From assembly GCF_003148465.1 (NCBI RefSeq), contig NZ_QGGI01000006.1, positions 62,001 through 126,000 of the forward strand: a stretch of DNA of 64,000 nt. Reading direction: 5' to 3'. Source of the stretch: Oceanotoga teriensis (GTDB lineage Bacteria > Thermotogota > Thermotogae > Petrotogales > Petrotogaceae). The translations under genes were made by a program, and so were the position numbers. The notes beneath the pieces were generated by a model. The model searched no databases and was not told the origin of the DNA. It was given only the letters and a program-made list of their open reading frames with translations. Below are positions 29,690 to 52,959 of this stretch, in pieces. Numbering within the stretch: position 1 is the stretch's first letter; every line of letters begins with the position of its first letter.

Positions 29690-30916
29690 TTAATCATTTA
29701 TTTCATTTATCCAAATATTAACAAGATTTATAGCTCCTCTATAACCAATAAAAGGAACAGAATAATCATGTAAACGCCATTTAGTATCTGGGTTAGAAAT
29801 TTGAAGTTCATCATTTTTATCAATCCATTTTAAAATTTCTCCACTGGTCATTAAAATTCCTTTATCATGTTTATTCACAAAATTTAACCAAATTTCTTCT
29901 TCTAAAAATGGAATATCATCATCAAAAAAATCAGGACAATTACTCCAACAAAATCCTTTTGGGAGATTTATTTCATTACAACCAAAATTTAAAATACCTC
30001 TTACAACATCAACATGTCCGCCTAAAGATAATAAAGATTCTTCTGTATGATCTCTTATAATATGTTTGAAATGAGGAATAACATTAAAAGATTGTTTTTT
30101 AAACAAATCCTCTTCTAAATTTATATAATCTAAATTTAAATTAAAATTACATAAATTTGATATTTTTTTTAACCAAGAAGAAGTTCCTTTAATGCCATAA
30201 GGTCTTTCAAAAATAAAAGGAGTACCAAATTTTTTTTCCAAATATTTAGCTGATTTAACCCCTTCACGACGAATAACAATATTTAAATGAGCAGCTCCTA
30301 TTTTTTGAATATCATCTATAGAAGTATTAGAACTTAAGACACATAAAGGGTCAATATCAAAAGCATTTTTCATAATACGTATAATTTCATTCGAATCTTC
30401 TTTAAACTTAAAAATATCAGCACATGAACCTATTATATTAAAAGTTGGTCTTTCAGTTTTTTTTAATTTTACTGGAATTGATTTACATAAAGAAAAAAGA
30501 GTTTCCTGAACCCCTTTATTTTTATTAATATTAAAACCTCCAAAGCCAAAAGGAATAAATATAATCTCTGGATATTTATATTTAATTTCTTCAGTCATTG
30601 AAAAAATATCACTTCCAATCATTTCAGGAATAGCAGAAGGAATTAAAAAAATAACTTTTGGATTTTCAATTTTTACAACTTCATCAATAGTATCTTCAAA
30701 TCTTTTAACTTGTCCAAGAGAAATATCAGTTTCATCAATATGAGTTGAATAAAGCTTACTTCCTTCATAAATTCCAGCTCTTTTTAAACTAACACTACTA
30801 TAATGCATATGGCCCATACATCCAAATTCTATAATTGCAGAATTTTTAATAGTAGAAAGAGTCCACAAAATTCCCATTCTTCCCGAAGGAACAGGTTTAA
30901 ATCTATGCAATCCCAT
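29690..30916 (-). CDS. Nitrogenase-like component 1 subunit B (NifK/BchB-like), one cysteine ligand
   Basis: ~408 residues of the nitrogenase component 1/oxidoreductase family. The N-terminus has RFKPVPSGRMG, then EFGCMGHMHYSS with C33 at the cluster-ligand position, and IPSAIPEMIGSD where nitrogenase has TTCxxExIGDD; the ligand cysteine is a serine here. It therefore offers one cysteine ligand to a shared cluster. The longest frame begins upstream; the ATG at 30916 follows AAGGTGG and overlaps the previous gene by 14 bases. Expected partners are the two preceding genes. The substrate is unknown; nothing indicates nitrogen fixation. Confidence 0.82.
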   Translation of the reverse strand: MGLHRFKPVPSGRMGILWTLSTIKNSAIIEFGCMGHMHYSSVSLKRAGIYEGSKLYSTHIDETDISLGQVKRFEDTIDEVVKIENPKVIFLIPSAIPEMIGSDIFSMTEEIKYKYPEIIFIPFGFGGFNINKNKGVQETLFSLCKSIPVKLKKTERPTFNIIGSCADIFKFKEDSNEIIRIMKNAFDIDPLCVLSSNTSIDDIQKIGAAHLNIVIRREGVKSAKYLEKKFGTPFIFERPYGIKGTSSWLKKISNLCNFNLNLDYINLEEDLFKKQSFNVIPHFKHIIRDHTEESLLSLGGHVDVVRGILNFGCNEINLPKGFCWSNCPDFFDDDIPFLEEEIWLNFVNKHDKGILMTSGEILKWIDKNDELQISNPDTKWRLHDYSVPFIGYRGAINLVNIWINEIND

Positions 30917-32174
30917 TATAAAAACCACCTTTAATAGCATCATAAACTTTCAAAATTCTATTTAATAAATTTAGAGTACGTTCGTAACCAACTTGACCAT
31001 AAAAATCAAACATGTTACCTATATTTGGAATATTTTGGTTATATGGAATATATCCAAAACACATATCAAAATTTAATTTTTTTATTATTTCAATATCTGA
31101 ATCAATATTAGTAATCTTACATATAAAAGGATCAACACCCATAGAAAAAAGTTTATTTGAATCTTCTTTATCATGATTATAAAATTCTTCTATATGAAAA
31201 AGTAATGGAATCATACCAAGTTCTGTTAAATAAATTCCAAGAGGAATTGGTAAATCTATTCTAAGAGATAATATAAAACTTAAATCTTTTAACTTCTTTT
31301 TCGCTTCTTTTTCAATTTTTAAAGATTCTTTTCTTAAAGAATTGAAAGAATTTAAATCAAAATTAAAATATTTTGAAATTTTATTATAGGCATCATCTAT
31401 ACTCTTAATATCATATATATCATGAAGAGAAATATATGGAATTTTAAATTCTTCATACATTTTTATGGCCAAAGGTTTCATATAAGGTGAAAAAACTATA
31501 TTTAAAACACTATCAGTTGAATTTTGGAAATCATATAAACTTGAATCTGGTGATAAATAACGAATATTAGCATCAATTTTTTTTAATTCTGAAACTAATA
31601 ACGGAATAGAACTGTGACCGTCTAAAGAGACTCCTAAAAGATTAACCTGATTATTTTTTTGTTCTTTTTTTAACATCAATTTATGCATAGCTTCCATTGT
31701 CTTCCAAGAACCTGAAGGAAAACTTATATGTTTAAATTGTCCAAGCATAATAAAAGAAACTTTAGCATCTATTTCATGATTAATTTCTTCTAAAATACCT
31801 TCCATATCTTCACCTATAAGTTCAGGAACACAAGTTAAAATAACTAGTATAGCTTTAGAACCTAATTTATCCATTTTTTTTAAAGAATCTATAATTCCTT
31901 GACGGCATCCAAAGACAACTTCATTAGAGTTTAAAACATATAACCAATGAAATTCATTATTTTCACCTTCTGGATTAGGACTAAAAAGTCTTGAATGTAT
32001 TGTACATTCTGGCATTCCTACCAATAAAGTTGATAAACCTTTAATATTTTCTGCAATTATAGATGCTCTATGCATAGGACAATGACTTCCATTATGAACA
32101 GCAGGAGTTAAAAACTTAACACCTCTATTTGAATTAACTTTAGATAATTTATTTAAATGAGAAAATTCATTCAA
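30903..32174 (-). CDS. Nitrogenase-like component 1 subunit A (NifD/BchN-like), three cysteine ligands
   Basis: 423 residues of the nitrogenase component 1 superfamily. Three cysteines match cluster ligands: C32 in HCPMHR, C57 in PECTIHSR and C115 in LTCVPELIGED. The 25-residue step between the first two equals that in NifK and BchN. A fourth, C90 in FGCRQG, stands where nitrogenase has FGG. No clear match to the FeMo-cofactor ligands is visible. With the next gene it should form the catalytic component of a NifH-driven reductase. It starts two bases after the NifH-like gene. Confidence 0.84.
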   Translation of the reverse strand: MNEFSHLNKLSKVNSNRGVKFLTPAVHNGSHCPMHRASIIAENIKGLSTLLVGMPECTIHSRLFSPNPEGENNEFHWLYVLNSNEVVFGCRQGIIDSLKKMDKLGSKAILVILTCVPELIGEDMEGILEEINHEIDAKVSFIMLGQFKHISFPSGSWKTMEAMHKLMLKKEQKNNQVNLLGVSLDGHSSIPLLVSELKKIDANIRYLSPDSSLYDFQNSTDSVLNIVFSPYMKPLAIKMYEEFKIPYISLHDIYDIKSIDDAYNKISKYFNFDLNSFNSLRKESLKIEKEAKKKLKDLSFILSLRIDLPIPLGIYLTELGMIPLLFHIEEFYNHDKEDSNKLFSMGVDPFICKITNIDSDIEIIKKLNFDMCFGYIPYNQNIPNIGNMFDFYGQVGYERTLNLLNRILKVYDAIKGGFYNGIA

Positions 32175-32175
32175 T

Positions 32176-32922
32176 TTATTTCACATCCTCCAAAAGTAAT
32201 TTTGCAAGATTTTTATAATGCTCGCTCATATCTGATTCTGGAAAAACTTCTATTACTGTTTTAAAATCAATCTCTGCATCTTGAACATAATGACTACGTG
32301 GAATTTGATAAACAACTGGAATACCTATTTCATCAGCAGCCTTGTCTACAAGCATTCTTTCATTTTCTATATTTTTTGAATTTAAAATCAAACCTTTTAA
32401 AGAAGCGTAACCACGTTTTTCAAAATTTTTAACAGCATAAGAAATATTTGAAGCTGCATATAAAGACATCATTTCTCCCGAAGTTACGATATAAACTTCA
32501 TCAGCATAACCACCCCTTATAGGCATTGCAAAACCACCACAAACAACATCACCTAAAACATCATATAATACAATATCTGGTTTATATATTTCATAAGCAT
32601 TTAATTCTTCAAGTTTTTCAAAAGCCGTTATTATACCTCTTCCAGCACAACCAACACCGGGAACAGGACCTCCTGCTTCTACACATAAAACATTTGTATT
32701 ACTTAAAGCGACGAGTTCTTCAAGAGTAGCATCACCATTAACTCTTAAAGTATCTAAAACTGTTGGAATTTTTTTACCCATTAAATTACGAGTTGAATCA
32801 GCTTTAGGGTCACAGCCAATTTGCATAACTGTAAATCCCATAGAAGCCATTGCAGCGGATATATTTGAAGTTGTTGTTGATTTCCCAATTCCACCTTTTC
32901 CATAAATAGCTATTTTCTTCAT
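32176..32922 (-). CDS. NifH/BchL-like ATP-dependent iron-sulfur reductase
   Basis: 248 residues. Walker A is [14 protein letters not shown], followed by [12 protein letters not shown]. The two cysteines that bridge the [4Fe-4S] cluster of the homodimer are present: C92 in GVGCAGRG and C128 in [10 protein letters not shown], together with the arginine that is ADP-ribosylated in NifH. It should use ATP to deliver low-potential electrons to the two component 1-like proteins encoded downstream. It begins 33 bases after the FecE-like ATPase, in what appears to be the same transcript. GGAGGG precedes the start. Confidence 0.93.
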
Positions 32923-32955
32923 AAAAGAGAACCCTCCTAATTTTTCAAATCAATA

Positions 32956-33744
32956 TTATACTTTTATTAAATCATAAGAAATACATGTAGGTTTTTTTGT
33001 TTTTGGATCATTTATGATATTTGCATCAATGTTAAAAGTTTTTTCTAAAATATCTTTTTTCATAACTTCCTCAGGTGTTCCATAAGAAATAATTTTTCCT
33101 TTTTTTATAGCTATCATATAATCTGCAAATCTTGAAGCGAGATTGAGATCATGAAGAACCATAACAATAGTACGATTTTGTTCTCTATTTAATTTATATA
33201 AAAGTTCCAGTAAATCTAATTGATAAGAAAGATCTAAATAAGTTGTAGGTTCATCCAATAAAATTAAATCTGTTTGTTGTGCGAGAGCCATTGCAATCCA
33301 AACACGTTGCCTTTGTCCGCCTGAAAGATTATCAATAGGAATATTTCTAAAAACTTCTAATTTAGTTACACTCAAAGCCCAATCAATTATTTTTGTATCC
33401 TCAGAATTTAATTTTCCAAAACCTTTTTGATGAGGAAATCTTCCATAAGAAATAAGTTCTTCAACTGTTAAACCATCGGGTGCTTGAGGTGTTTGAGGTA
33501 AAATAGCTATTTGTTTAGCTATTTCTTTAGTATTCAAACTATTGATATCTTTTCCATTTAAATAAATCAATCCACTCTTAGGTTTTAATAAACGGCCTAA
33601 AGCTTTTAAAATAGTTGATTTACCACAACCATTTGAACCAATTATTGTAGTTATTTTTTTTTCGAAAATTTTTATATTCAAATTTTCAACGATTAAATTA
33701 TTATCATAAGCTATATTTAATTCTTTTGAATTCATACATTCCAT
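32956..33744 (-). CDS. FecE/FepC-type ABC transporter ATPase
   Basis: 262 residues. Walker A IGSNGCGKST, signature LSGGQRQRVW, Walker B LILLDEPTTYLD and the H-loop VLHDLN are intact, with the FecE-family pattern of ferric siderophore, haem and cobalamin importers. It powers the two FecCD permeases encoded immediately upstream. GAGGAAG precedes the ATG. Confidence 0.93.
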   Translation of the reverse strand: MECMNSKELNIAYDNNLIVENLNIKIFEKKITTIIGSNGCGKSTILKALGRLLKPKSGLIYLNGKDINSLNTKEIAKQIAILPQTPQAPDGLTVEELISYGRFPHQKGFGKLNSEDTKIIDWALSVTKLEVFRNIPIDNLSGGQRQRVWIAMALAQQTDLILLDEPTTYLDLSYQLDLLELLYKLNREQNRTIVMVLHDLNLASRFADYMIAIKKGKIISYGTPEEVMKKDILEKTFNIDANIINDPKTKKPTCISYDLIKV

Positions 33745-33760
33745 ACAAATCTTCCTCTCA

Positions 33761-34777
33761 TTATAATTTACTTTTAATTAAAAGATATAAAAAATAAGGA
33801 GCACCAATTATTGCAACAACTATTCCTGTAGGTATTTCAGATGGTTGTACTATAGTTCTGGCAATTGTATCAGCAGCTAATACAAGTATAGAACCTGTTA
33901 TAGCACAAGTTGGTAATAATATAGAATGTTTGGGACCTACTAATCTTCTTGAAAGATGTGGGGCGATTAATCCCACAAAACTTATACCTCCACTTATTGA
34001 TACAGCAGAAGCAGCAAGAATGACAGAAACCATTAATAATCTTCTTTTTTCTTTATTTATAGAAACCCCAAGGCTTTTAACTACATCATCATCAAGATTT
34101 AAAATATCGAGTATTTTTGATTTAAAGAGTAAATATGGAACAAAAATCAAAATCCAAGGTAAAAGTGCTAAAACAAAATACCAATTACTTCCCCAAATAC
34201 TCCCCGCTTGCCATGAAGCAACAAAATCAAATTGTGTATCATCCAATTTAACGACTAAAATAGTTGTTAAAGCAGAAATACCTGCTTGAATTGCTATACC
34301 ATTTAAGATTAATCTAATTGGTTTTATACCTTCATGTTTATTTTTACTTAAAATATAAATAATTATAGCAGTTATACCAGCGCCAATAATTGCTAAAAAA
34401 GGTAAAGTAAAAATAGAAAAAAATGTATTAGTTCCAAATAATAAAACATAAACAATTATCATCAAACCAGCTCCTGCATTAATACCCAGAAGTCCAGGAT
34501 CTGCGAGAGCATTTTTACTTATATCTTGAATTATACAACCCGACAAAGAAAGAGCCATACCTACTAAAATAGAGATTACAATTCGAGGCAATCTAAACTT
34601 AAACAAAATAAGATTTTCTTTTGTTGATCCTCCTCCAAATAAAGTTTTTAAAGTATCCAATGGAGAAAGTTTTATATATCCTGTATTCATACTCAAAATG
34701 AAAAAAATTAAAATTAAAATAAAACATATAATTAAAATATTAACATTATATAAATTTTTTTTGTTTTTATATTCCAT
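33761..34777 (-). CDS. FecCD-family ABC permease (first of two by position)
   Basis: 338 residues with about ten membrane helices. LRLP-type N-terminus FRLPRIVISILVGMALSLSG and the NALADPGLLGINAGAG segment define the family, as does the GGISFVGLIAPHLSRRLVG loop that contacts the ATPase. It forms the membrane channel with the neighbouring permease. Its start codon and the stop codon of that gene overlap. Confidence 0.93.
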   Translation of the reverse strand: MEYKNKKNLYNVNILIICFILILIFFILSMNTGYIKLSPLDTLKTLFGGGSTKENLILFKFRLPRIVISILVGMALSLSGCIIQDISKNALADPGLLGINAGAGLMIIVYVLLFGTNTFFSIFTLPFLAIIGAGITAIIIYILSKNKHEGIKPIRLILNGIAIQAGISALTTILVVKLDDTQFDFVASWQAGSIWGSNWYFVLALLPWILIFVPYLLFKSKILDILNLDDDVVKSLGVSINKEKRRLLMVSVILAASAVSISGGISFVGLIAPHLSRRLVGPKHSILLPTCAITGSILVLAADTIARTIVQPSEIPTGIVVAIIGAPYFLYLLIKSKL

Positions 34778-35799
34778 TATAATTTTCTCCTCTCATTATT
34801 AGCAAGATACAAGAAAAAAGGAGTACCTATAAGAGAAATTATAGCTCCTATAGGAGTTTCAAATGGAGGATTTAAAGTTCTGGATCCTAAATCGGCAAGG
34901 ACCATCAATAAAGCACCTAAAACTGCTGAAGAAGGAATGATTTTTCTATAATCAACGCCAACGAAATATCTTGAAATATGTGGTATGATCAAACCTACAA
35001 ATCCTACAGAGCCAACAACAGCAACAGAAACTCCTGCAAGGATCAAAACTGTTAAAGTTGACAAAATAGTAATAAATTTTATATTAAGACCAAGACTTTT
35101 AGCAACATCTTCTCCAAGGCTTAAAAGAGAAATTGATTTAGATAAAAGTATTGACAAAATCAAAGCTAATAAAATCCATGGAGTAATAATTTTTAATTGA
35201 ATCCAATTAGAACCAGCAACACCACCAACTGTCCAGAACATTATATTTTGTGCTACATTAAAATAAAGAGCAATACCTTGACTTAATGCAGATAAAAGGG
35301 CACTAACAGCAACTCCAGCTAAAACAAGTCTCATTGGTGAAGATTTTCCATGTCTAAAAAAAGTTGCTCCTTTAACTAAAAAAGAACCAAAAGCTGCACC
35401 TAAAAAAGAAAAAAATACTATGTATATATAACCAATATTAGGAAAAAAAGCAAAACAAATTGATAAAGCAAAAGCTGCACCAGCATTTAAACCCATGAGC
35501 CCAGAATCAGCAAGAGGATTTCTCGTTGTTCCTTGCATAATAGCTCCAGAAACTGCAAAAGCTGCCCCAACCAAGGCACTTGCAATTATTCTTGGCAAAC
35601 GTAAATCTATTATTATTAAATGTTTCATATTTTCATTGTCAAACCTAAAAAAAGCTGTCCAAACATCTTTAAAAGAAATATCAGAAGCACCTCTTGTTAT
35701 TGAAAACTGTATCAATAAAAAAAGTAAAAAACTTCCAAAAGTCATAATAATAAAAAATATTTTGGAATTTTTTCTTTCATTTTTAATTTTTGCACTCAA
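34777..35799 (-). CDS. FecCD-family ABC permease (second), TTG start
   Basis: ~340 residues, paralogue of its neighbour, with RLPRIIASALVGAAFAVSG, NPLADSGLMGLNAGAA and the ATPase-contact loop GSVGFVGLIIPHISRYFVG. The open frame reaches 35877, but that part runs through a hairpin and lacks a ribosome binding site. GGAGGTAATC stands ideally before an in-frame TTG at 35799, giving an N-terminus of normal length. It forms the heteromeric channel of the importer. Confidence 0.9.
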   Translation of the reverse strand: MSAKIKNERKNSKIFFIIMTFGSFLLFLLIQFSITRGASDISFKDVWTAFFRFDNENMKHLIIIDLRLPRIIASALVGAAFAVSGAIMQGTTRNPLADSGLMGLNAGAAFALSICFAFFPNIGYIYIVFFSFLGAAFGSFLVKGATFFRHGKSSPMRLVLAGVAVSALLSALSQGIALYFNVAQNIMFWTVGGVAGSNWIQLKIITPWILLALILSILLSKSISLLSLGEDVAKSLGLNIKFITILSTLTVLILAGVSVAVVGSVGFVGLIIPHISRYFVGVDYRKIIPSSAVLGALLMVLADLGSRTLNPPFETPIGAIISLIGTPFFLYLANNERRKL

Positions 35800-35826
35800 A
35801 AGATTACCTCCTATAAAAATCAAAAT

Positions 35827-35864
35827 ATAAAAAAATTGGTACAGTCTATATAAAAGGCTGTACC
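35827..35864 (-). terminator. Hairpin with T run between binding protein and permease genes
   Basis: On the minus strand GGTACAG...CTGTACC (35864-35838) closes a short loop and is followed by AATTTTTTTATA. It would act as a partial terminator or mRNA end behind the binding-protein gene, leaving more of that product than of the permeases. Confidence 0.65.
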
Positions 35865-35880
35865 GCTTATATATCAAAAA

Positions 35881-36789
35881 TTATTTTGAATAAATTTCAA
35901 GAAGTTTTTCAGCTGTAACTCTTAAAGCAAGAGGTCCAAAAGTATTTAAAGAATCATCGAAATAAAAAATATGATTATTTTTAACTGCTTTTATTAAATA
36001 CCAAACTGAAAAAGACTCTTGGGTTTTAACAAATGTTTTTGAAAGATCTACATAATTTTGAAAAGCTATATAATCAGGATTCATTTCGGCGACAGTCTCT
36101 AAAGAAATAGTTTTATAATCATAAGGGTAATTTTCAGGAGCCTTCAATCCAAAAGTCTTATAATAAAATTCATTGCCACGTGTTATAAAAGATTTACCAT
36201 CAGTACGAAATAAAGCGAATGTTTTATCATTTTTTTCACTTAAAATTTTTCTTGTGTTTTCAATTATTTCTTCAGTTTCTTTGATAAATTCTTTTGCAAA
36301 CTCTTCTTTTCCAACTATTTTAGCTGCATCCATAGTTTGTTCTTGCCAAGATTTTGAAAAATCAAGTAATATAACAGGAGCAATTTCATTTAACTGATTA
36401 TAAAGTTCATTAACATGACCCTGTCCTTTAAAAGTAACTATTACATCAGGATTTGATGCAAGAATTGCTTCTAAATTTAAACTACGAGCACTACCTAAAT
36501 CAATTATTTTTTCACCATTGGAATAAGGTTTAAGTGTTTCCCATTCTTCTAGAGCTTTCATAGCTGTACCAGTTGAAGATCCTGCAGAAGCAGCTGGTGG
36601 AGTACCTAAAGCCATAAAATATTCTAGATATAAAGAATGAAGAATAGCAATTTTTTTTGGTTGAGATTTAAGAACAATTTTTTTGCCAGTGGCATCTATA
36701 ATAGTTTTTGGCCATTCATTGTTATGAGCAAAAGCCAACAATGATGAAAAAATAGAAATTGATAAAATCAAAACTAAAATTTTTTTCAT
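35881..36789 (-). CDS. Periplasmic binding protein of the FecBCD-type importer
   Basis: 302 residues. A signal peptide (about 1-21, cleaved near AFA-HN) lacks a lipobox cysteine, so the protein should be soluble in a periplasm. The body shows the TroA/FecB-type bilobal fold, with DATGKKIVLKSQPKKIAIL and NLEAILASNPDVIV. The ligand may be a siderophore, haem, corrinoid or other chelate; ligand residues cannot be read with confidence. First gene of a seven-gene run into the nitrogenase-like cluster. A TTAG-N6-CTAA dyad lies in its promoter. Confidence 0.88.
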   Translation of the reverse strand: MKKILVLILSISIFSSLLAFAHNNEWPKTIIDATGKKIVLKSQPKKIAILHSLYLEYFMALGTPPAASAGSSTGTAMKALEEWETLKPYSNGEKIIDLGSARSLNLEAILASNPDVIVTFKGQGHVNELYNQLNEIAPVILLDFSKSWQEQTMDAAKIVGKEEFAKEFIKETEEIIENTRKILSEKNDKTFALFRTDGKSFITRGNEFYYKTFGLKAPENYPYDYKTISLETVAEMNPDYIAFQNYVDLSKTFVKTQESFSVWYLIKAVKNNHIFYFDDSLNTFGPLALRVTAEKLLEIYSK

Positions 36790-36823
36790 GAATATTCCTC
36801 CAATATTTTTAATTCTACAAAAA

Positions 36824-36837
36824 TTAGTTTACGCTAA
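36824..36837. promoter_or_regulatory. TTAG-N6-CTAA operator 1 (DtxR-like iron box), binding-protein operon
   Basis: TTAGTTTACGCTAA, extended to 7-base inverted arms AAATTAG/CTAATTT (36821-36840). It lies just upstream of a possible minus-strand -10 (TAGAAT, 36817-36812), inside the -35/spacer region. The same core occurs at two other promoters of the island. Confidence 0.65.
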
Positions 36838-36869
36838 TTTATTCAAAAAATATTATATCAAAAATCAAT

Positions 36870-37724
36870 TTATATTGGAATAGCAATATCCTGAAAATCA
36901 TATGGACAATTCCTGAATTTTTTTCTATAATTAGTTGGAGAAATATTATAATATTTTTTAAATAATCTACTAAAATATAAAGCATCCGGATATCCAACAT
37001 TCTTTGCAATGACATTTATAGGATAATTATTATTTATTAAAAATTCTTTGGCTTTATCAAGTCTAATTTTAATGATATAATCCCCTGGGCCCATATTAAT
37101 ATGTTTTCTAAAAATATAATATAAATGATTCTCATTTATATTATTTTTATTGCATATTTCTTTAACGCTTATATTATTCATATAATTATCCATTATATAA
37201 GAACATACTTGATTAAAAAGGTGAGAAGAATTTTTTTTATCTATTTCATTATTTTGGGCGCTTATAAAAATTTCTTCAAGGATATTTCTGAAAAGAGTTT
37301 CTGTTCTAAATTCAGAAATTAAAGTTTTTTCATTAAATTCTTTATAGATTTTAAATAAAATTTCATTTAATTTTATATTATTATATGTATTAACTTCAAA
37401 ATGAATATTTGATAAACTTATATCAGTTTTTATTTCTTTGGTATCATATAAAATAGAAATAAACTCCCAATAATCAGTTCCAAGTACTTTTTTTTGAAGT
37501 TTAGAAGAAGCAGAACCATGAATTATGTTCCCTGTACCAGCAATATATGGATTATCATTAAAAGAAAATTTTGCTTTACCATTAAGAGGAAAAATAAACC
37601 CAGGAAAAGGAGCTGATCTTTGTACACCAAATCTTCCAGGATTTATTTTACAATGATAAACTCCTTTTATATTGAAAGACATATTTCCAAAATATTTAAT
37701 AAGATCATTTAAATCCATTCGCAT
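36870..37724 (-). CDS. AraC-family transcriptional regulator (1)
   Basis: ~285 residues. The N-terminal ~150 form a cupin-like sensor region. The C-terminal double helix-turn-helix includes NNINENHLYYIFRKHINM and VIAKNVGYPDALYFSRLFKK, ending with the usual SPTNYRKKF. It probably activates the adjacent importer or exporter operon in response to the imported chelate, as YbtA does. The start at 37724 is chosen because GGAGG lies eight bases upstream. The promoter has a TTAG-N6-CTAA dyad. Confidence 0.88.
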   Translation of the reverse strand: MRMDLNDLIKYFGNMSFNIKGVYHCKINPGRFGVQRSAPFPGFIFPLNGKAKFSFNDNPYIAGTGNIIHGSASSKLQKKVLGTDYWEFISILYDTKEIKTDISLSNIHFEVNTYNNIKLNEILFKIYKEFNEKTLISEFRTETLFRNILEEIFISAQNNEIDKKNSSHLFNQVCSYIMDNYMNNISVKEICNKNNINENHLYYIFRKHINMGPGDYIIKIRLDKAKEFLINNNYPINVIAKNVGYPDALYFSRLFKKYYNISPTNYRKKFRNCPYDFQDIAIPI

Positions 37725-37757
37725 ATAAATTTCCTCCAATTAAATCATAAAATATAA

Positions 37758-37771
37758 TTAGATTAACCTAA
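37758..37771. promoter_or_regulatory. TTAG-N6-CTAA operator 2, upstream of AraC regulator 1
   Basis: TTAGATTAACCTAA, a near-perfect palindrome (one mismatched pair) 34 bases before the start of AraC regulator 1, overlapping its likely -35/spacer region. It closely resembles DtxR/MntR-family sites. Confidence 0.65.
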
Positions 37772-37801
37772 CTTATGTAAATTATATCATTTGAAATTAA
37801 C

Positions 37802-37847: not shown

Positions 37848-39602
37848 TCAATCTTTTAAAATTTTCCAACCTTCAGCATTTTTTCGAATATCTAAAAACT
37901 TTTTATAAAGGCCATTTTCTTTTATAAGTTCAGAATGAATTCCCTTTTGAACAATTTTTCCATTATCTAATACCAATATTTGGTCAGCATTTTTGATTGT
38001 TGCTAAGCGATGAGCTATTATTATTATTGTTTTTCCATGTGTTAATTCATTAAGTGCCTCTTGTATAAAATGTTCATTTTCTGGATCAATACTTGCAGTG
38101 GCTTCATCTAAAATTACAATTGGAGAATTTTTTAAAATAGCTCTTGCTATTGAAATTCTTTGTTTTTCTCCACCAGAAAGTGAAGCTCCAGATTCTCCAA
38201 TTAAAGTATCATAACCTTTTGGAAAAGACATTATAAAATCATGGCAACGAGCTTTTTTAGAAGCAATGATGACCTCTTCTCTGCTTGCATTGGGATTTCC
38301 AAATTTTATATTATTAAAAATACTATCATTAAATAGATAAACTCTTTGAAAAACCATACTAATATTTTTTAAAAGACTATCACAGGTAAAAAGTTTTATA
38401 TTCTCATTTCCAATAAAAATATTACCTGAATCTATATCATAAAATCTTGCAATTAAATTACATATAGTTGTTTTTCCACTTCCAGATGGACCTATAATAG
38501 CTGTTGTAGTATTTTGATCTATATTAAATGAAACATTATTTAAAACTAAATTTTTATCATAAGAAAATGAAACATTATCAAATTTTATATCAAAAGAATT
38601 CAACTTAATATCAGAACCATCTTTATCTATAAATTCGGCATTTTCAATTTTTTCTATTTTATCCATATTTGTATCTATCATTTTCAAAACATGTACAGCA
38701 TTATTAATAGTTTCAACATGACCAAATATAACAAAAGAAAATATCATCATCATTGCCATATATGGAATACTCATATCGCCATTTAAAGCAAAATATGCGG
38801 AAAGAAATATTAATAAAACAGAAGCTGATTTAAGACTGAAAAGATGAAAACAATTGAATGGAACAAAATTTTTTTCAATTTTAATATTAATATTTTTACT
38901 TTCTTCATAAGCTTTTTCTATATTTTTTATGGCAAAATTTTCTTTACCAAAAGATTTTATAATAGGAATACCTTTAAGATATTCAATAGTTGAGCCAACC
39001 ATACGACTTTGAGATTTCAAATGTGCAGATGAATTATTTTTGCTTTTAACTCCAAGAAAATGTAAAGCTAATGTTGAAAAAATAACACCTATTAAAGCAG
39101 AAAAAGCAAGATAAATATTAAAAAAACATAAACATAAAATAAGCGTAAAAACACTTATATAACCATTTATAACGGTATCTATCATTTTCATACCATACAT
39201 TTCTAAATATGAAAGATCATTAGTTACAGATGTAGTAATATCACCAGATTTATTACTTTGAAAAAAACCAAGTGGAACACGTTTTAAAACATCTCCTATA
39301 TAAATTCTTTGTTTTGCAGTTAATTCATATATTATACTATCTTGTAATACTGCACGACGATAAGAAGTATAAAAACGTCCCAAAACAGATAAAAATATAA
39401 ACAAAGTTATGTATAATATCCAAATAGGATTAATTTTTTGTACATTTTTAAAATCATCATATATCATATTCATTGCAAAACCACCAGCCATAATAGGAAA
39501 TGCAATAAATAATGAATTAAAAAAAGAATAAACAAAACCTTTATACAAACGTGATTTATAATCACCTATCCAAATTATAATTCTTTTAATTATTTTAAAC
39601 AT
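37848..39602 (-). CDS. ABC half-transporter, YbtQ/IrtB-like
   Basis: 584 residues: an exporter-type six-helix domain (to ~320) and an ATPase with Walker A GPSGSGKTT, signature LSGGEKQR, Walker B IVILDEATASID and the IAHR H-loop. Paired genes of this type next to AraC regulators and iron genes resemble YbtPQ and IrtAB, which import ferric siderophores despite an exporter fold. Drug export remains possible. Its start overlaps the upstream partner gene by eight bases. Confidence 0.87.
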   Translation of the reverse strand: MFKIIKRIIIWIGDYKSRLYKGFVYSFFNSLFIAFPIMAGGFAMNMIYDDFKNVQKINPIWILYITLFIFLSVLGRFYTSYRRAVLQDSIIYELTAKQRIYIGDVLKRVPLGFFQSNKSGDITTSVTNDLSYLEMYGMKMIDTVINGYISVFTLILCLCFFNIYLAFSALIGVIFSTLALHFLGVKSKNNSSAHLKSQSRMVGSTIEYLKGIPIIKSFGKENFAIKNIEKAYEESKNINIKIEKNFVPFNCFHLFSLKSASVLLIFLSAYFALNGDMSIPYMAMMMIFSFVIFGHVETINNAVHVLKMIDTNMDKIEKIENAEFIDKDGSDIKLNSFDIKFDNVSFSYDKNLVLNNVSFNIDQNTTTAIIGPSGSGKTTICNLIARFYDIDSGNIFIGNENIKLFTCDSLLKNISMVFQRVYLFNDSIFNNIKFGNPNASREEVIIASKKARCHDFIMSFPKGYDTLIGESGASLSGGEKQRISIARAILKNSPIVILDEATASIDPENEHFIQEALNELTHGKTIIIIAHRLATIKNADQILVLDNGKIVQKGIHSELIKENGLYKKFLDIRKNAEGWKILKD

Positions 39603-41361
39603 AAAAATCTTCCTTTCTATTTCCTGCGGCCCAACTTTTAGAGCCTATATGAGATTTCCACATTTCAATATATAAATTACAATTTCTTAAAAGATAATCT
39701 TGTGTTCCTTGTTCTACAATTTTTCCATTATTTAAAACTACAATATTATCGGCATCTTTAATTGTTGAAAGACGATGAGCTATGACGATTAATGTTTTAT
39801 TTTTAGTTAATTCTGAAATAGATTTTTGAATATTATCTTCATTTTCAGAATCTGTAAAAGCTGTTGCTTCATCAAGAATAAGAATTGGAGAATTTTTAAG
39901 CATTGCTCTTGCTATTGTTATTCTTTGCATTTCTCCACCAGAAAGTTTTTTGCCAGCTTCACCAGCTTCTGTATGATAACCATTAGGTAATTTTTTTATA
40001 AAATCATCACATTGAGCTTTTTTGGCAATATTAAAAACTTCTTCGTCAGTTGCATCTGAATTTCCAATTCTTATATTTTCTAATATAGAACAATCAAATA
40101 AAAAATTATCTTGAGTTACAAAACTTATAATATTTCTTAATTGAGTTAAAGGTATATCTTTTATATCAACTCCACCTATTTTTATAGAACCCGAATCAAT
40201 ATCCCAAAATCTACTAATTAACCTTGCTATAGTTGATTTTCCTCCACCTGAAGGACCAACAAGAGCATGAAATTCTCCTTGAGGAATATTAAGAGTTATA
40301 TTATCAATGGCATTAGATTCATTATTATAAGAAAATGAAACATCATTTAAATTGATACTATAATCTTTTAAATCAATACATAATTCATTATCTTTCAATT
40401 CTTCAATATTTAAAATTTTATTAACATCGTTTACAGCATATTCGATTGTTTTTAAATCATTAATAGCCGTTGTAAACCACATCAAAGGAGATATTATTCC
40501 CATAGAAAGAATTAAACACATTACAAATTCAGATGGGCTTAATGAACCATTAATATATAAAATCATACCTATAGGAATTGTACCTAATAATGAAGAGGGT
40601 AAAAAAGTTGCTGTAAAATTCATCAATTTCCATGTACTTCTAAACCAATCTAAAGTATAATCTTTAAAAAATTTTACAGAATCACTGAATTTTTCATAAG
40701 ATTTTGAAGATTGATTAAAAGTTTTAATAACTTCTATACCATTTATATATTCAACAATAACACTGTTAACATGATTTGAAGCTTTCATATAATCGGAATA
40801 TTTTTTATTAAATTTTTTCATTTCAAAAGAAAATAAAATTAAGGGTAAAGGTACGGTTATCAGTGAAGCAAGGGCCATACGCCAGTCAATAAATAATAAA
40901 TAAGAAAAAACAAATAATGGTAGAATTAAATTAGAAATACCTTCTGGAATCATATGTGCAAGAGGTAATTCAATTGTTTCAACTCTATCAACAATAACAT
41001 TTTTAAATTTACCAGAAGTTTCATTCAAAACAGTTCCAAGTGGTGCTTTAAGTAATTTGTTGATCAAACGTAAACGTATTTGTTCCAAAATGGAATAAGC
41101 TGAAATATGAGAAAGTGTAGTTGAAAAGGCATAAAATAACAATTTACCGAAATAGCCAAGAAAACATATCAAAGACCAAAAAATAATATCTTTTAAATCA
41201 GGATTACCTTCAAAAAAAATATTTAAAATATTATAAACAGCAATATAAGGAATAAATCCACCTAAAACACTTATAATTGCAAAAATAACTGAGAAAAAAA
41301 TCTTCCATTTACAAAAAGTTGCAAATTCAAAGACAACTCTCATCCATTTTTTATTCTTCAT
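39595..41361 (-). CDS. ABC half-transporter, YbtP/IrtA-like
   Basis: ~588 residues with the same architecture as its partner. Walker A is GPSGGGKST, the signature LSGGEMQR, and Walker B LILDEATAFTD. The two products should form a heterodimer. The ATG at 41361 follows GAGGTG; the longer frame begins at a GTG within that site. A strong palindrome lies only 27 bases upstream over the predicted transcription start, so the operon is probably repressed by an iron-responsive protein. Confidence 0.87.
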   Translation of the reverse strand: MKNKKWMRVVFEFATFCKWKIFFSVIFAIISVLGGFIPYIAVYNILNIFFEGNPDLKDIIFWSLICFLGYFGKLLFYAFSTTLSHISAYSILEQIRLRLINKLLKAPLGTVLNETSGKFKNVIVDRVETIELPLAHMIPEGISNLILPLFVFSYLLFIDWRMALASLITVPLPLILFSFEMKKFNKKYSDYMKASNHVNSVIVEYINGIEVIKTFNQSSKSYEKFSDSVKFFKDYTLDWFRSTWKLMNFTATFLPSSLLGTIPIGMILYINGSLSPSEFVMCLILSMGIISPLMWFTTAINDLKTIEYAVNDVNKILNIEELKDNELCIDLKDYSINLNDVSFSYNNESNAIDNITLNIPQGEFHALVGPSGGGKSTIARLISRFWDIDSGSIKIGGVDIKDIPLTQLRNIISFVTQDNFLFDCSILENIRIGNSDATDEEVFNIAKKAQCDDFIKKLPNGYHTEAGEAGKKLSGGEMQRITIARAMLKNSPILILDEATAFTDSENEDNIQKSISELTKNKTLIVIAHRLSTIKDADNIVVLNNGKIVEQGTQDYLLRNCNLYIEMWKSHIGSKSWAAGNRKEDFYV

Positions 41362-41387
41362 GGATAAAAACACCTCACAAAAAAAAA

Positions 41388-41420
41388 TTTAGTTAGGTAT
41401 GCCTAACTAAAGTAATTATA
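41388..41420 (-). promoter_or_regulatory. TTAG-N6-CTAA operator 3 with -10, half-transporter operon
   Basis: The inverted arms TTTAGTTAGG and CCTAACTAAA are perfect 10-mers around TATG (41388-41411); the core TTAGGTATGCCTAA is at 41393-41406. The minus-strand -10 TATAAT is at 41420-41415, so the dyad covers the expected start site. It matches half-sites of the DtxR/IdeR consensus TTAGGTTAGSCTAACCTAA closely. Confidence 0.72.
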
Positions 41421-41498: not shown

Positions 41499-42449
41499 TT
41501 ATAAAAAAGATTTTCTATATTCTAAAGGAGTTTTTCCCATAATATCTTTGAAAGCAACAGAAAATTTACTTGGACTTTCATAACCAACATCACCAGCAAT
41601 AAAAGCAATACTTTTTTTTGTGTGTCTTAACATAATAGCAGCTTGGTTTATTCTATAAACTCTAATATAAGAATAAATAGAATTTCCATAAATAGCTTTA
41701 AAACAATTCTTCATAGAAGTTAATGATATATCAAACCTTTTAGCTAAAAAATCTAAAGTATAATGTTTTTCAATATCTTCAGTTATAAATTTTTCAATTG
41801 ATTTTACTTTTTCTACTTGAGACCTATAAAAATAAGGAGGTTTTTCATTATTTTTTGAAATATCAATAACACTTAAATAAAGTAACAATTCAAGTATTTT
41901 AATCTGAAAGTACTGTTTTTTAATATCATTTGGTACTGAATATAATTCAGAAAAAATATGTTCAATGGATTTTTCAGATCTTAAAACAAAATAATCAGTT
42001 TTATTTAAGAATTTATTTTTTAATGATCCAATATTAATTGGGAATCCATCAAGTGCTTTTTTTATTGAATATTCAGCTTTATCCAAATAAAAACATATAG
42101 TAATACCATGATAATGCTTTATTGGAAATTCAAAAGTTTTTTTATGATTATCTCTATCATCAATTCTTAAGTCTCCTTGTTTTAAGTACATGAACAAATC
42201 ATCTTTAATATTCCATTGTATTCTTCCTTCTCTACAATGATCAATACAAAAAATATTTTCGGGAGTTTCGAATTTTGATTCAGTTTTTTCCATATAAAAA
42301 TCATTATACATTAATGATATTCCAGGAAAAACATCATATAAAATCATTTTTCCATCTCCAGTATCATTATGCATTTCAAAAACTGTACAATCTTCATTCT
42401 CACAAATTTTATTCACATTATCTCCAAGATTATTTTTATTATAAATCAT
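41499..42449 (-). CDS. AraC-family transcriptional regulator (2)
   Basis: 316 residues. The N-terminal sensor region includes HCREGRIQWN and the QGDLRIDDRD loop. The C-terminal DNA-binding domain has LAKRFDISLTSMKNCFKAIYG and VGYESPSKFSVAFKDIMGKTP. The type is common beside YbtPQ-like transporters, where it senses the chelate and activates uptake. It lies 26 bases after the ECF ATPase gene, so it may be expressed with the ECF operon while acting on the operon downstream. Confidence 0.88.
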   Translation of the reverse strand: MIYNKNNLGDNVNKICENEDCTVFEMHNDTGDGKMILYDVFPGISLMYNDFYMEKTESKFETPENIFCIDHCREGRIQWNIKDDLFMYLKQGDLRIDDRDNHKKTFEFPIKHYHGITICFYLDKAEYSIKKALDGFPINIGSLKNKFLNKTDYFVLRSEKSIEHIFSELYSVPNDIKKQYFQIKILELLLYLSVIDISKNNEKPPYFYRSQVEKVKSIEKFITEDIEKHYTLDFLAKRFDISLTSMKNCFKAIYGNSIYSYIRVYRINQAAIMLRHTKKSIAFIAGDVGYESPSKFSVAFKDIMGKTPLEYRKSFL

Positions 42450-42475: not shown

Positions 42476-43858
42476 TTAAAAATTGTTCATCTGTAAAATT
42501 TTTGAACAAGTATTATTCAAAAATTCTATATCATGAGTTATTACAATAATAATATGATTTTTAGAAAGTTTTTTTATCATAGAACTAACTTTAATCATAT
42601 TATCATAATCTAATCCACTTGTTGGTTCATCAAATATAAGTATTTTTTTATTTGATAAAATACCTGTAGCAATTGCAAGTCTTTGTTTTTGTCCGCCAGA
42701 AAGTGACATTGGATGAGAATCTTTAAAATCGATTAAATTAAAATTATTTAAAACATTTTCAATATCCAAATCGTTAGAATGACCATCGATATTACATTCA
42801 TTCCATACACTTTCACTAAAAAGCTGATGATTAACATCTTGCATTATCATATAACAATAATCTATTCTTTTTTTATGATTCAGTTTAATATCATTGAATT
42901 TTATATATCCTTCATATTCTTTAATAAGTCCAGTAATACATCTCATTAAAGTACTTTTCCCAGAACCATTTTTCCCTAAAACTCCAAGAATTTCACCTTG
43001 TTTAACTTCAAAAGATATATTATTAAAAATTATTTTATTTTTAATTTTACATGAAAGATTATTAACTTTTAAAATATTTTTAGAATAAACATTAGGAGTA
43101 TTTTTTAAATTTATAGTTTCTTTATTTATAGATCTTAGTCCCATATCAACTCTATTTTCAAAATTTAAAGAAAAAAAATCCTTAGAGTTAAAAATTTTAG
43201 AAATATAACCATCTTTCATTAAAACTACTCTATCAACAATATCTTTAAGATAAAAAAGTCTGTGTTCAGCTATTATAATTGTTTTTCCTTCAGATTTTAT
43301 TTTTTTTAGTATGTTTTTTAAAACTGATATAGATTCTTCATCCAAATTGGCGGTAGGTTCATCTAATACAAATACTTCAGGATTCATTGCAAAAACTGAG
43401 GCGAAAGCAAGACTTTGTTTTTCTCCGCCAGACATTTTAAATATATTCCTGTTCAATAATTTCTCGATTTTTAAAGAATTTATAGTTTCTTTTAATCTTA
43501 ATTCTATGTTTTTCTGAGGTATACCATTATTCTCAAGCCCAAAGACAATTTCACTATTAGAATCAATATTAAAAAATTGAGATTTTGGATTTTGAAATAC
43601 GGATCCTATAATTCTTGAAATTTCATACATTTTATGATTCTTGATATCAAAGTCATTACATAAAACTTTTCCATTAAAATAAAAATTTTCAGTCAAATGT
43701 GGAATTATACCATTTATAAGTTTAGTTAAAGTTGTTTTACCTGAACCACTTTTACCACATAATAAAATACATTCATTTTTTAAGATATTTAAATTAATAT
43801 TTTTTAAAATTATATTATCTTTATTATAACCAAAAATAATATTTTTTAATTCAATCAT
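42476..43858 (-). CDS. ECF transporter double ATPase (EcfA-EcfA' fusion)
   Basis: 460 residues with two complete ABC domains. Domain 1 has GKSGSGKTT, MSGGEKQSLAF and VFVLDEPTANLD; domain 2 (from ~255) has GKNGSGKST, LSGGQKQRLAI and ILIFDEPTSGLD. It drives an energy-coupling-factor importer with the T and S proteins encoded upstream. Fusion of both ATPases is typical for dedicated (group I-like) ECF systems. Its ATG and the stop codon of the T-component gene overlap. Confidence 0.92.
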   Translation of the reverse strand: MIELKNIIFGYNKDNIILKNINLNILKNECILLCGKSGSGKTTLTKLINGIIPHLTENFYFNGKVLCNDFDIKNHKMYEISRIIGSVFQNPKSQFFNIDSNSEIVFGLENNGIPQKNIELRLKETINSLKIEKLLNRNIFKMSGGEKQSLAFASVFAMNPEVFVLDEPTANLDEESISVLKNILKKIKSEGKTIIIAEHRLFYLKDIVDRVVLMKDGYISKIFNSKDFFSLNFENRVDMGLRSINKETINLKNTPNVYSKNILKVNNLSCKIKNKIIFNNISFEVKQGEILGVLGKNGSGKSTLMRCITGLIKEYEGYIKFNDIKLNHKKRIDYCYMIMQDVNHQLFSESVWNECNIDGHSNDLDIENVLNNFNLIDFKDSHPMSLSGGQKQRLAIATGILSNKKILIFDEPTSGLDYDNMIKVSSMIKKLSKNHIIIVITHDIEFLNNTCSKILQMNNF

Positions 43859-44516
43859 TATATCACATTCTCGATTCTTAAAATTATAGACACAAAAAGA
43901 AAAATTATACCAATTAAAAGAGAAAAAAAATCAATATAATGAAAATTCAGATCTATTAAAGAAGTTTTTTTTATTGGATTTTCTATTCCTCTTGTCACGG
44001 CTGCAGCACTTAATTCTTCTGAAGTATTTGTTGCAGAAATCATAATTGGAACTAAATAAGACTCAAATTTTTTAAATCCTTTAATTCCTCTTAATTTAAA
44101 AGCATCTTTAATATGATTTCTTTCTTCTTTTAATGCGGGAAAATATCTTATAGTTATGGCCAAAGGTATTATAATACTTTGTGGGATTTTCCATTTTTGT
44201 AAAGCTAAAATAAAAGCTCTTACAGGAGTTTTTTTTATTATCAAAGTTCCAAACATTAAACAAGGGAAAATTTTTCTTGAATACATAACAATTATAGAAA
44301 ATAAATTAATAAATATACTCGGTGCAATTGGAAACAAAAAATATTGAATTATTAATAAAAATAAAAAAGATAATAACCAATAAAAAGAATGTTTTCTACA
44401 GCCACATAAAAAAAGAAGAATAGCTATAAAAAAAACTAAAGAAGTTTCTATATAAATAAAAGAAGTATTTCTGTTCTTGGATCTAAAGTAAAACTATTGT
44501 TTAAATCAAACATCAT
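43858..44516 (-). pseudogene. ECF transporter T component, broken by a frameshift
   Basis: The intact-looking part (from about 44450 down) codes for several membrane helices and the coupling motifs KLRGIKG and TRGIENP of EcfT/CbiQ proteins. The N-terminus MMFDLNNSFTLDPRTEILL, typical of the family, is in another frame: it starts with an ATG overlapping the S-component stop (ATGA) and hits TAG at 44450-44448. The two parts are joined by a -1 change (one base lost or two gained) near 44448-44465. Without repair only a short product from a TTG at 44337 is possible. A sequencing error or a true mutation could both explain this. Confidence 0.8.
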
Positions 44517-45091
44517 ACAATACCAGCCTTTTTAAAATGTTTATTAAAAAGTTTTTTAGTTATCCAAGCTCCTATAAATGCACCTAAAATTGGTGCAATG
44601 AATAAAACTGCAAGCATACCATTGGAAGCAATAGAATTCAATGTACTAACATATTCTTCTGGCATACCTTGACTTGAAATTTGAGCTAAAAAATCTTCTT
44701 TAAAAAGCCATATTGGTAAAGGTGATCCAATCATTCCTAGTGAAAAAAATACGAAAGAAAACATATTACCTTTAAAATTTTTATACTTCGAAATATAACG
44801 AATTAGTTCGGCAATTCCACAAGAAATAATAAATGTAATTAATATAACAATTGTAAATTGACCAGTTATAAAATATAATAAACCAGTTATTAACCCCATA
44901 ATAAAAATTGCTCCAAATTTTTGAACTTTAGAAATCATTATCATATAAGGTATACCTGTAAAAATAGCTATTAAACCAGGCATTAAAATCCATATATAAG
45001 GTGAAAAACCAGATAATAACATAAACGTAAAGTTTATAACGAAATAAATAGCCGAGAAAATTCCTATAGTTATTAAATCTTTACCCTTCAT
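44513..45091 (-). CDS. ECF transporter S component, MptE/Trep_Strep family
   Basis: 192 residues with about six membrane segments. The opening KGKDLITIGIFSAIYFVINF and the central MPGLIAIFTGIPYMIM match the Trep_Strep (TIGR02185) group of putative substrate-binding ECF subunits. The substrate is unproven; related loci lie with AraC regulators and YbtPQ-like pairs, hinting at metal chelates or haem. AGGAGGG precedes the start; first gene of the ECF operon. Confidence 0.85.
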   Translation of the reverse strand: MKGKDLITIGIFSAIYFVINFTFMLLSGFSPYIWILMPGLIAIFTGIPYMIMISKVQKFGAIFIMGLITGLLYFITGQFTIVILITFIISCGIAELIRYISKYKNFKGNMFSFVFFSLGMIGSPLPIWLFKEDFLAQISSQGMPEEYVSTLNSIASNGMLAVLFIAPILGAFIGAWITKKLFNKHFKKAGIV

Positions 45092-45238
45092 AAAAACCCT
45101 CCTAAATAAATTATAGTTAGAATATCATAAATTATTATACTTATTAAAAGGGTTTCTTTCTGCTCCATATTGACTTTTATATACCGAAAAGACAATATTA
45201 TATATATCTTAAACTAAATTTAAACTCGTCTCCAAAAA

Positions 45239-48200: not shown

Positions 48201-48685
48201 AATGTTTTTCTATATTTTACTTTATCAAATCTGTCAAACCACCAAAATATTTTTATATATGAATTAATTTCAAATGAATTTAAAAAATCATTATTCTCTA
48301 TTTTTAGTTTATATTTTCCATTTTTTTTTAAAATAAGCCCTTTTTGTTCTATAGAAAGATTTTTAATATTTGAAATATTTTCAAAAAGATTTGGATTAAA
48401 ATTAAAATCTTTTATATTATCTTCTGAAGGAAAATAAGGCTTTATATCATAAACTAATAACTCTTTATTTTCTAAACCTTCTAATTTTATATATCCAAGT
48501 TTTGAATCAATATTCTTTATTTTGAATACTCTTTCTTTTAAAATATACAATTCATCAGAATATATAAGTATCAGATGACTAAAATTTTCAATATATTTTA
48601 GACCTTTTAAGAAATCTTTTTTTACTTTTAAAACACCATTTTTTGAAACATCTCCGATTATTTCAAGTTTAAATGATTTATTCAA
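45239..48685 (-). CDS. Tandem TrmO-like domains fused to a UvrA-like ABC ATPase
   Basis: ~1148 residues from a TTG start placed after GGAGGTGAT. Residues ~1-93 look like a shortened TrmO: GLKYIENFSHL and VYDIKPYFPSEDN but no catalytic loop. Residues ~125-225 are a second copy with the signature GVFASRSPVRPTPIAL and a CFDHTPLIGILPY end. From ~290 on it is UvrA-like: TGVSGSGKSS, zinc-binding CPKCG and CPVCNGKG, LSGGELQRL with MDEPTAGLHP, a second TGVSGSGKSS, CDNCKGCG and LSGGEAQRL with LDEPTTGLH. Compact UvrA paralogues often give resistance to DNA-binding drugs. A MerR-type promoter precedes it. Confidence 0.88.
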   Translation of the reverse strand: MNKSFKLEIIGDVSKNGVLKVKKDFLKGLKYIENFSHLILIYSDELYILKERVFKIKNIDSKLGYIKLEGLENKELLVYDIKPYFPSEDNIKDFNFNPNLFENISNIKNLSIEQKGLILKKNGKYKLKIENNDFLNSFEINSYIKIFWWFDRFDKVKYRKTLICNPPYENAPKTGVFASRSPVRPTPIALTIAKIIDIKKDEIYVTELECFDHTPLIGILPYNNNDSILNAKIPKWLSHWRDSIEENEYSDGKLNIINSYLEDTIFNYSNPKRKLELNKKNFYKKNSLKINGARHNNLKNIDVEIPYGTITSITGVSGSGKSSLAFDTLYSECRKRFLDASGENSLNDNSDFDSIEGIIPAIAISQNSLGQNIYSTVGTATGMINQLRILFSTIGIRHCPKCGNPVIPMTEDTIENILLNLDNYKIEDIYGKTHNDFRLALNIGKGVFYLILASDKKMVLQTNNTCSKCGKILFDISPSMFSYTNPESMCPVCNGKGEIYDVDVDSIIQNPEISILDGASKLWGKLRVFLKNPNHNWIRGQIIALANEMNIDLNLPWKDLPEEFKKQAIYGSNGRNVTLNFSNNKSGRNGNITRPVEGAYHIIKRLVSDEKASKSNIGYMKKIKCNYCDGERLNIEGRSVTINKIRYPEILSMSLKELKKWCESLYSTITDYQYDFISPILKKLIYDLSTCKELGLDYLSLDRSVTTLSGGELQRLKLVSQFGSNISGVLYVMDEPTAGLHPKDYEKLIKIIKNLKENSNTILLVEHNKNIIKSSDRIIDIGPKAGKDGGNIVLDGEINDILNNNNNVSETIEYIKNDKNLFIPKNKHKNINFIEFEDIKYNNLKNISIKIPLKSLTCITGVSGSGKSSLLEGVLFPTFNKNREINCKYTVREKFKKIILADQSPIGRTPRSVPATYIGIMDEIRNIFSEKNNINSSYFSFNSPDGQCDNCKGCGEIKIDFINTWSKCPACDGKRYKKKILDFDFDGKNIFDILKMTIEEAFDFFHKNKNKKIYNVLNILMDVGLGYLKLGQNSATLSGGEAQRLKLAKELCKSSGKNDLYLLDEPTTGLHFSDIQNLLTLFRKLTDKGCTIIIIEHNPDVIKNADWVIDIGPESGEFGGEVIVQGTPKIVSENINSYTGKYLKVSSD

Positions 48686-48709
48686 TAAAATCACCTCCGT
48701 TTTAAAAAC

Positions 48710-50280: not shown

Positions 50281-50324
50281 AAAAAATAAAAAATATAGAA
50301 GATTAAAAAATCTTCTATATTTTT
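50281..50324 (-). terminator. Terminator of the NAD biosynthesis operon
   Basis: AAAATATAGAAGATT and its complement make a long stem that includes the nadC stop codon, followed on the minus strand by a T-rich run. Confidence 0.82.
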
Positions 50325-51139: not shown

Positions 51140-51143
51140 TTTA

Positions 51144-52055: not shown

Positions 52056-52057
52056 TA

Positions 52058-52810: not shown

Positions 52811-52831
52811 TAAAAACATCTCCTTTGTATA

Positions 52832-52855: not shown

Positions 52856-52959
52856 CTTCAAAGTATAAATTTAAATAACGAATAAATGAAAATTGTATAA
52901 ACAAACTGTTTAATAAAATTGTGATATAATATTAAACATAAAAATAAGGGGGATAAAAT

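Follow-up and report, generated by a model that had tools for sequence, protein, structure and literature searches.

A nitrogenase-like enzyme encoded with a FecBCD-type importer in Oceanotoga teriensis: a candidate reductase for imported ferric siderophores

Relatives of nitrogenase are known to serve in nitrogen fixation and its maturation, in tetrapyrrole reduction and in the reduction of sulfur compounds. DPOR (BchLNB) and COR (BchXYZ) combine a NifH-like electron donor with a heterotetramer holding a small [4Fe-4S] cluster at the subunit interface, its ligation in DPOR being described as (Cys)3Asp (PMC4157233). MarHDK and the Nif, Vnf and Anf enzymes depend on NifB or MarB and contain a large cofactor besides a P-cluster. 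For Clostridium botulinum and Alkaliphilus, Dos Santos et al. (2012, PMC3464626) described a clade of NifEN-like pairs downstream of a NifH gene and an ATP-binding cassette (ABC) ATPase gene, with three cysteines in the D-type protein and none in the K-type protein. The authors suggested that metal transport is coupled there to the assembly of a cofactor; the part of that paper dealing with the clade reports no function, regulation, or siderophore or haem context. Here we analyse a 64,000-nt stretch of the Oceanotoga teriensis contig NZ_QGGI01000006.1 (the window, to which all coordinates refer), where a minus-strand run of seven genes, fecBCDE-nifH-nifD-nifK, joins a FecBCD-type importer to a NifH-like protein and two component-1 subunits, D and K (together, HDK). 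We propose, with a probability of roughly 0.6, that HDK is a flavodoxin- and ATP-driven reductase that would free iron from an imported ferric siderophore. No functional assignment for the HDK clade was found in the literature searched, whose coverage of subscription papers and preprints was incomplete.

The seven genes, in the order of transcription, are:

35881-36789, minus strand: binding protein of the FecB type (Peripla_BP_2), assigned to the siderophore class from its nearest solved relatives
34777-35877, minus strand: FecC permease (FecCD match); the listed N-terminal start is probably too long
33761-34777, minus strand: FecD permease (FecCD match), with same-type copies in linked loci 49-72% identical
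32956-33744, minus strand: FecE ATPase (ABC_tran match)
32176-32922, minus strand: NifH-like Fe protein (Fer4_NifH, 307 bits), P-loop GKGGIGKST and cluster cysteines conserved
30903-32174, minus strand: NifD/E-like subunit D (Oxidored_nitro), TTG start, FeMoco ligands lacking
29690-30916, minus strand: NifK/N/BchB-like subunit K (Oxidored_nitro; 204 and 179 bits for the pair), start corrected from 30943

The start of K is most likely the 10th codon, the ATG at 30916, since homologues begin MGLHRF and a GGTGG site precedes this ATG; K residue numbers below are counted from the longer open reading frame (start 30943). One Peripla_BP_2, two FecCD and one ABC_tran protein make the importer complete for the Fec/Btu type, and the PF00148 pair, the PF00142 protein with its P-loop and folds that match Nif and DPOR place HDK in the nitrogenase superfamily. 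The run is nearly gapless, with 16 bases between FecD and FecE, 1 base between NifH and D, and an overlap of the D and K genes, and no intrinsic terminator was predicted on the minus strand within the operon. A sequence-only reading of the window had listed these genes at these coordinates, had put the start of the NifH-like gene 33 bases past the ATPase gene, and had taken the absence of nifB, nifE and nifN as a sign that this is not nitrogen fixation. Each gene was found in place with the expected Pfam family, and the gap was measured as 33 bases (FecE end 32956, NifH start 32922). A genome-wide PF00148 search returned solely the D and K genes of the operon, with other NifDKEN-type genes absent, and nifB gave no match in the genome. 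Together with the missing FeMoco ligands and the incomplete P-cluster cysteine set, this sets the system apart from the molybdenum, vanadium and iron nitrogenases.

The cysteines of D and K point to a different kind of metal site. In D, Cys32, Cys57 and Cys115 align with NifD Cys62, Cys88 and Cys154, while in K the positions of NifK Cys70, Cys95 and Cys153 are occupied by Ser20, His45 and Ala104. The six cysteines of a P-cluster (three per subunit) are thus incomplete, with three in D and none at the NifK positions. In the alignment, the ligands of the iron-molybdenum cofactor (FeMoco), NifD Cys275 and His442, are replaced in D by a serine and a gap. K Cys42 is invariant and lies three residues ahead of His45, in the region of BchB Asp36 and NifK Cys95; K Cys174, Cys201, His310 and Cys334 and D Cys352 are also near-universally conserved among family members. 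This pattern does not fit a P-cluster. It is compatible with one [4Fe-4S] cluster at the subunit interface, as in DPOR and COR, with K Cys42 or His45, in place of BchB Asp36, as the putative fourth ligand. The clade of Dos Santos et al., compared here by its description and outside our trees, likewise has an ABC ATPase gene in one neighbourhood with nifH and a pair of component-1 genes, three cysteines in D and no FeMoco ligands, but its K is described as lacking cysteines whereas the K of the window has the invariant Cys42 and His45. Their proposal (PMC3464626), extended to HDK, would make it an assembly or scaffold complex that builds the imported metal into a metal cofactor, and the NifE/NifN similarity and the adjoining metal transporter agree with it. 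We regard this as quite improbable, given that the genome has no NifB-like gene and no further component-1 pair, that the cofactor ligands are missing and that co-regulation with feoAB and a flavodoxin (below) indicates iron starvation.

AlphaFold models of the two component-1 subunits were obtained with mean confidence values (predicted local distance difference test) of 84.7 and 89.0. The K model is nearest in fold to BchB (template modelling score, TM, 0.80) and the D model matches nitrogenase beta chains (TM 0.64-0.66), with 14-18% identity to DPOR and COR in the fold matches; the genes here, unlike those of DPOR and COR, have no link to pigment genes. NCBIfam equivalogs for DPOR and COR were not reached (BchB, 99 bits against a cut-off of 490; NifH-like protein, 198 against 345 for BchL), nor were those for CfbC (338 against 402) and CfbD (21-22 for D and K against 268), and homodimeric CfbD contrasts with the two different subunits here. 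In trees built without CfbCD sequences, so that CfbCD is compared by model scores alone, the NifH-like protein groups with copies from Treponema and from the genome G263, apart from NifH/Anf, MarH and BchL/BchX (support 0.889), and the D proteins of the window clade, G263 and Treponema saccharophilum group likewise (support 0.97). Among solved structures, the NifH-like protein is most similar to those of MarHDK and the Nif/Vnf/Anf proteins, with which the system also shares the HDK gene set and fold. In the tree, however, this protein lies outside the MarH+NifH group, and a NifB-type (MarB-like) gene is lacking in the genome. By these trees, HDK forms its own branch outside any clade of known substrate, a placement that rests for CfbCD on the scores.

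The linkage to the importer is conserved well beyond Oceanotoga. A genome-wide scan with the K alignment gave 41 loci, and the order AraC-FecBCDE-HDK, with small variations, was seen in ∼25 loci including the window. These lie in Bacillota, Deferribacterota, Spirochaetota and Coriobacteriia as well as here, with Pelosinus, Anaerospora, Metaclostridioides, Anaerotignum, Sedimentibacter, Lacrimispora, Sporobacter, Faecalispora, Seleniivibrio and metagenome-assembled genomes (MAGs) of Treponema and Coriobacteriales among the carriers. Because it is repeated in this many loci, the arrangement is not a matter of chance. A plasmid of Sporomusa termitida carries, in unbroken order, genes for a TonB-dependent siderophore receptor, AraC, FecBCDE and HDK, followed by one for a PF00756 esterase. 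The distances among FecC/FecD proteins are correlated with those among D/K proteins (Mantel r 0.51-0.62, p 0.0005). A tree of D+K separates the linked loci from a gut/termite/rumen branch (support 1.0), with the window lying near the base. In five carriers where HDK is distant from the transporter, a FecD of 62-72% identity is encoded elsewhere in the genome; the loci L008:6717-11230 and L047:6879-11230, of the order AraC-FecB-HDK with no adjoining permease or ATPase, show the same. The system is rare, since K was found in only 5 of 341 sampled Clostridia genomes. K is present in 2 of 3 carriers of this FecD type compared with 5/341 overall, a weak co-occurrence in which one carrier was the search centre. 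Close relatives in the Oceanotoga family and order lack these genes: among 61 genomes there were 2 matches, one of them to the Oceanotoga genome itself. In the Seleniivibrio MAG, a second NifHDK set (L019:16617-21038, minus strand) lies 5 kb away from the siderophore-type one, and its NifH falls among Anf/Vnf-type proteins.

Regulation ties the operon to iron. The palindromes and the genes upstream of fecB are:

36822-36839: operator-like palindrome AATTAGTTTACGCTAATT, 33 bp upstream of fecB
36870-37739, minus strand: AraC-family regulator, the first gene kept in homologous operons
37756-37773: palindrome upstream of the AraC gene, from a pattern search
37848-39602, minus strand: first half transporter (ABC type) of a pair resembling YbtPQ/IrtAB, from a domain scan
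39595-41373, minus strand: second half transporter of the pair, its closest solved bacterial half-transporters being YbtP/YbtQ and then IrtA
41391-41408: palindrome upstream of the ABC pair, from a pattern search
41499-42449, minus strand: second AraC-family regulator, from a domain scan
42476-45091, minus strand: energy-coupling factor (ECF)-type importer with double ATPase, CbiQ-like T component and Trep_Strep S component, from a domain scan
45237-45254: palindrome upstream of the ECF operon, from a pattern search

The 18-bp pattern ARTTAGNNNNNNCTAAYT (a TTAG-N6-CTAA palindrome) occurs six times in the 2.79-Mb genome, and its reversed control four times. Four of the ARTTAGNNNNNNCTAAYT sites fall in the window, all within 8.5 kb, against an expected 0.06 for the window as a whole. 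All six head iron-type units: the fecB operon, araC, the YbtPQ-like ABC pair, the ECF operon and, outside the window, feoA-feoB (PF04023; TIGR00437 equivalog) and a flavodoxin (TIGR01753). Homologous loci show a 76-fold enrichment of a related palindrome ahead of AraC/FecB (11 sites in 7.8 kb versus 9 in 488 kb), and in Metaclostridioides N8 an 18/19 Fur box precedes the AraC gene of the operon; no strict Fur box was found in the window, the best candidates matching 10-11 of 19 positions. Since this operator type is common to feoAB, the flavodoxin and other iron-type units, the operon most likely belongs to an iron-starvation regulon, with the palindrome as putative operator. Elsewhere in the window, a putative second iron importer of the FbpABC/FutA type (54713-59052, plus strand; binding protein, double permease and ATPase, assigned by eye) has no palindrome ahead of it.

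Several observations suggest that the compound carried by this importer is a siderophore. The nearest solved relatives of FecB are FeuA, FhuD and the vibriobactin- and enterochelin-binding proteins, with IsdE a weak match far down the list. Didermic relatives carry an added FemA/BauA-type siderophore receptor; that of Sporomusa is nearest FemA (E 9e-146), then BauA, scores above the TIGR01783 siderophore-receptor cut-off and fails the haem-receptor models. The Sporomusa operon also places its Fes-type esterase (PF00756) after K. A PF00756 esterase in the window (62904-63674, minus strand) lies far from the operon, and its best match, S-formylglutathione hydrolase, is below cut-off. Corrinoid import is unlikely because no cobalamin riboswitch was found in 12 homologous loci and the window; the mlp corrinoid clusters were considered as a related system and dropped. 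These results bear on the possibility that the Fec transporter delivers a tetrapyrrole, either haem or a corrinoid, for the enzyme to reduce in the manner of DPOR, COR and CfbCD. Known small-cluster relatives act on tetrapyrroles (PMC12552129), the fold of K is closest to BchB and a sister branch accompanies IsdE-type haem transporters. Against this stand the type of FecB and of the TonB receptor, the Sporomusa esterase and the lack of a riboswitch. A tetrapyrrole substrate in the window clade thus seems unlikely to us, though it is to be taken seriously. An enzyme that makes or recycles the siderophore, in a reductive biosynthetic step, rather than releasing its iron would share operon and regulation with siderophore uptake just as well. 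However, no NRPS, NIS or other siderophore-building genes were found among the window genes read or domain-scanned or the neighbours domain-scanned, and HDK is tied to import functions in every linked branch, which leaves this the least probable of the alternatives, and a highly improbable one.

Haem enters through the sister branches. G263 shows 31-38% identity in D/K, with the K cysteine missing, and its genes read LRR-NEAT, NEAT-LPXTG, IsdE, permease, ATPase, sortase and, last, HDK. Its IsdE scores 357.7 bits against a curated cut-off of 298.65, so that by gene content HDK ends an Isd haem-uptake operon there; 12 of 207 genomes matched in a survey of its family. Five of ten further loci examined, in five genomes of the sister branch, have the order nifH-FecB-FecCD-FecE-nifD-nifK, with the transporter genes between nifH and nifDK, and in two of these five a PF12641 flavodoxin is the first gene. 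The binding proteins of all five are IsdE-like (three at 267-276 bits, just below the cut-off, and two at 94-103). A third and distant HDK set is encoded on a plasmid of Treponema saccharophilum, beside FecB-FecC-FecE. The best reading is that the substrate would be a siderophore in the window clade and haem in the sister clade. In having an iron-import operon that closes with the enzyme genes, the sister branch resembles Isd/IsdG and HmuW/ChuW (anaerobic haem opening), which belong to other enzyme families: IsdG is an oxygen-dependent haem oxygenase and HmuW is a radical SAM enzyme.

From homology we infer a reductase; its electron donor, cluster type, substrate and chemistry are likewise predictions. 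Under iron starvation, importer, HDK and flavodoxin would be made under a common operator type, and FecBCDE would carry the ferric siderophore into the cell. The starvation-induced flavodoxin would reduce the NifH-like Fe protein, which by ATP hydrolysis would send low-potential electrons to the [4Fe-4S] cluster at the D/K interface. These would reach the ferric siderophore in a cavity equivalent to the FeMoco site of nitrogenase or the pigment site of DPOR, and iron would be freed through reduction of Fe(III) to Fe(II) or through reduction of a chelating group in the ligand. The donor is likely to be flavodoxin, which is co-regulated here and comes first in two sister operons. As a chemistry shared by both branches, ligand reduction is favoured, since the sister is haem-linked and reduction of haem iron alone releases no iron. 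The task proposed here for HDK, to free iron from imported siderophores by reduction, is also that of FhuF and SIP, but these have unrelated folds, use no ATP and work at milder potentials. Ferric tris-catecholates lie at lower potentials than the range of FhuF, which would explain an ATP-driven reductase. That working range is −0.24 to −0.48 V (PMC8068687). No SIP or FhuF was found in any of the 12 genomes or records tested, among them the Oceanotoga genome and 10 HDK carriers, with positive controls detected.

Some observations weigh against this proposal. The absence of SIP and FhuF may reflect anaerobic life, and in most clostridial anaerobes siderophore import takes place without an enzyme of this kind. 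The genome G365 has the transporter without HDK, and the loci L087 and L088 have AraC-HDK with no Fec genes alongside. The gut/termite/rumen HDK branch (L023, L026, L027, L030-L037 and L048) is monophyletic, and the tested genomes lack a same-type FecD (best 28-36% identity). In that branch, L036 has a different FecCD-FecE-FecB set and a methyltransferase upstream of HDK, and in L026 a FecBCD set is accompanied by a sulfite-reductase-like gene. A gut branch without the transporter would suit an HDK that handles an unrelated substrate, for example an organosulfur compound, and sits in the operon for regulatory reasons. The independent, repeated pairing with FecBCD-type importers in three branches and the separation from MarH in the NifH tree make this very unlikely.

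The sequence-only reading had inferred a reductase for the imported compound and had called for a phylogeny and a neighbourhood survey. Its central claim is supported, at the level of homology, by HDK's own branch relative to NifHDK, BchLNB, BchXYZ and MarHDK (CfbCD being scored only), by a FecBCD linkage conserved across phyla and recurring independently in the sister branch, and by the lack of any sign of separate regulation, the operon having one operator of the iron type, upstream of fecB, and no predicted terminator inside it. Its list of substrates (metal chelate, haem, corrinoid or siderophore) is narrowed: FecB and the receptor favour a siderophore here, the IsdE operon moves haem to the sister clade and corrinoid drops back.

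Apart from iron, the window contains a 1151-aa UvrA-type excinuclease (45239-48694, minus strand) with a small, separate-looking N-terminal domain, TrmO-like by eye, as a possible fusion; NAD-synthesis-like genes (nadC, nadA and aspartate dehydrogenase; 50315-52861, minus strand) beside the region; and a lysine riboswitch (4278-4453, plus strand; 114.5 bits).

The linkage itself was published in 2012 without a function; the regulon, the receptor type, the sister Isd operon and the cysteine map are new here and turn it into a testable claim. More tentatively, and with somewhat less than even confidence, the whole nitrogenase-superfamily branch may serve the iron nutrition of strict anaerobes, one sub-branch freeing siderophore iron and its sister dismantling or reducing imported haem. 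Iron acquisition would then be a fourth role for relatives of nitrogenase. If true, this would explain the way in which strict anaerobes, lacking oxygen, can release the iron of haem and of tightly binding siderophores: electrons driven by ATP would be able to reach ferric complexes whose potentials are too low for ordinary siderophore reductases, and the sister-branch enzyme would replace, for imported haem, the oxygen-dependent haem oxygenase of aerobic bacteria.

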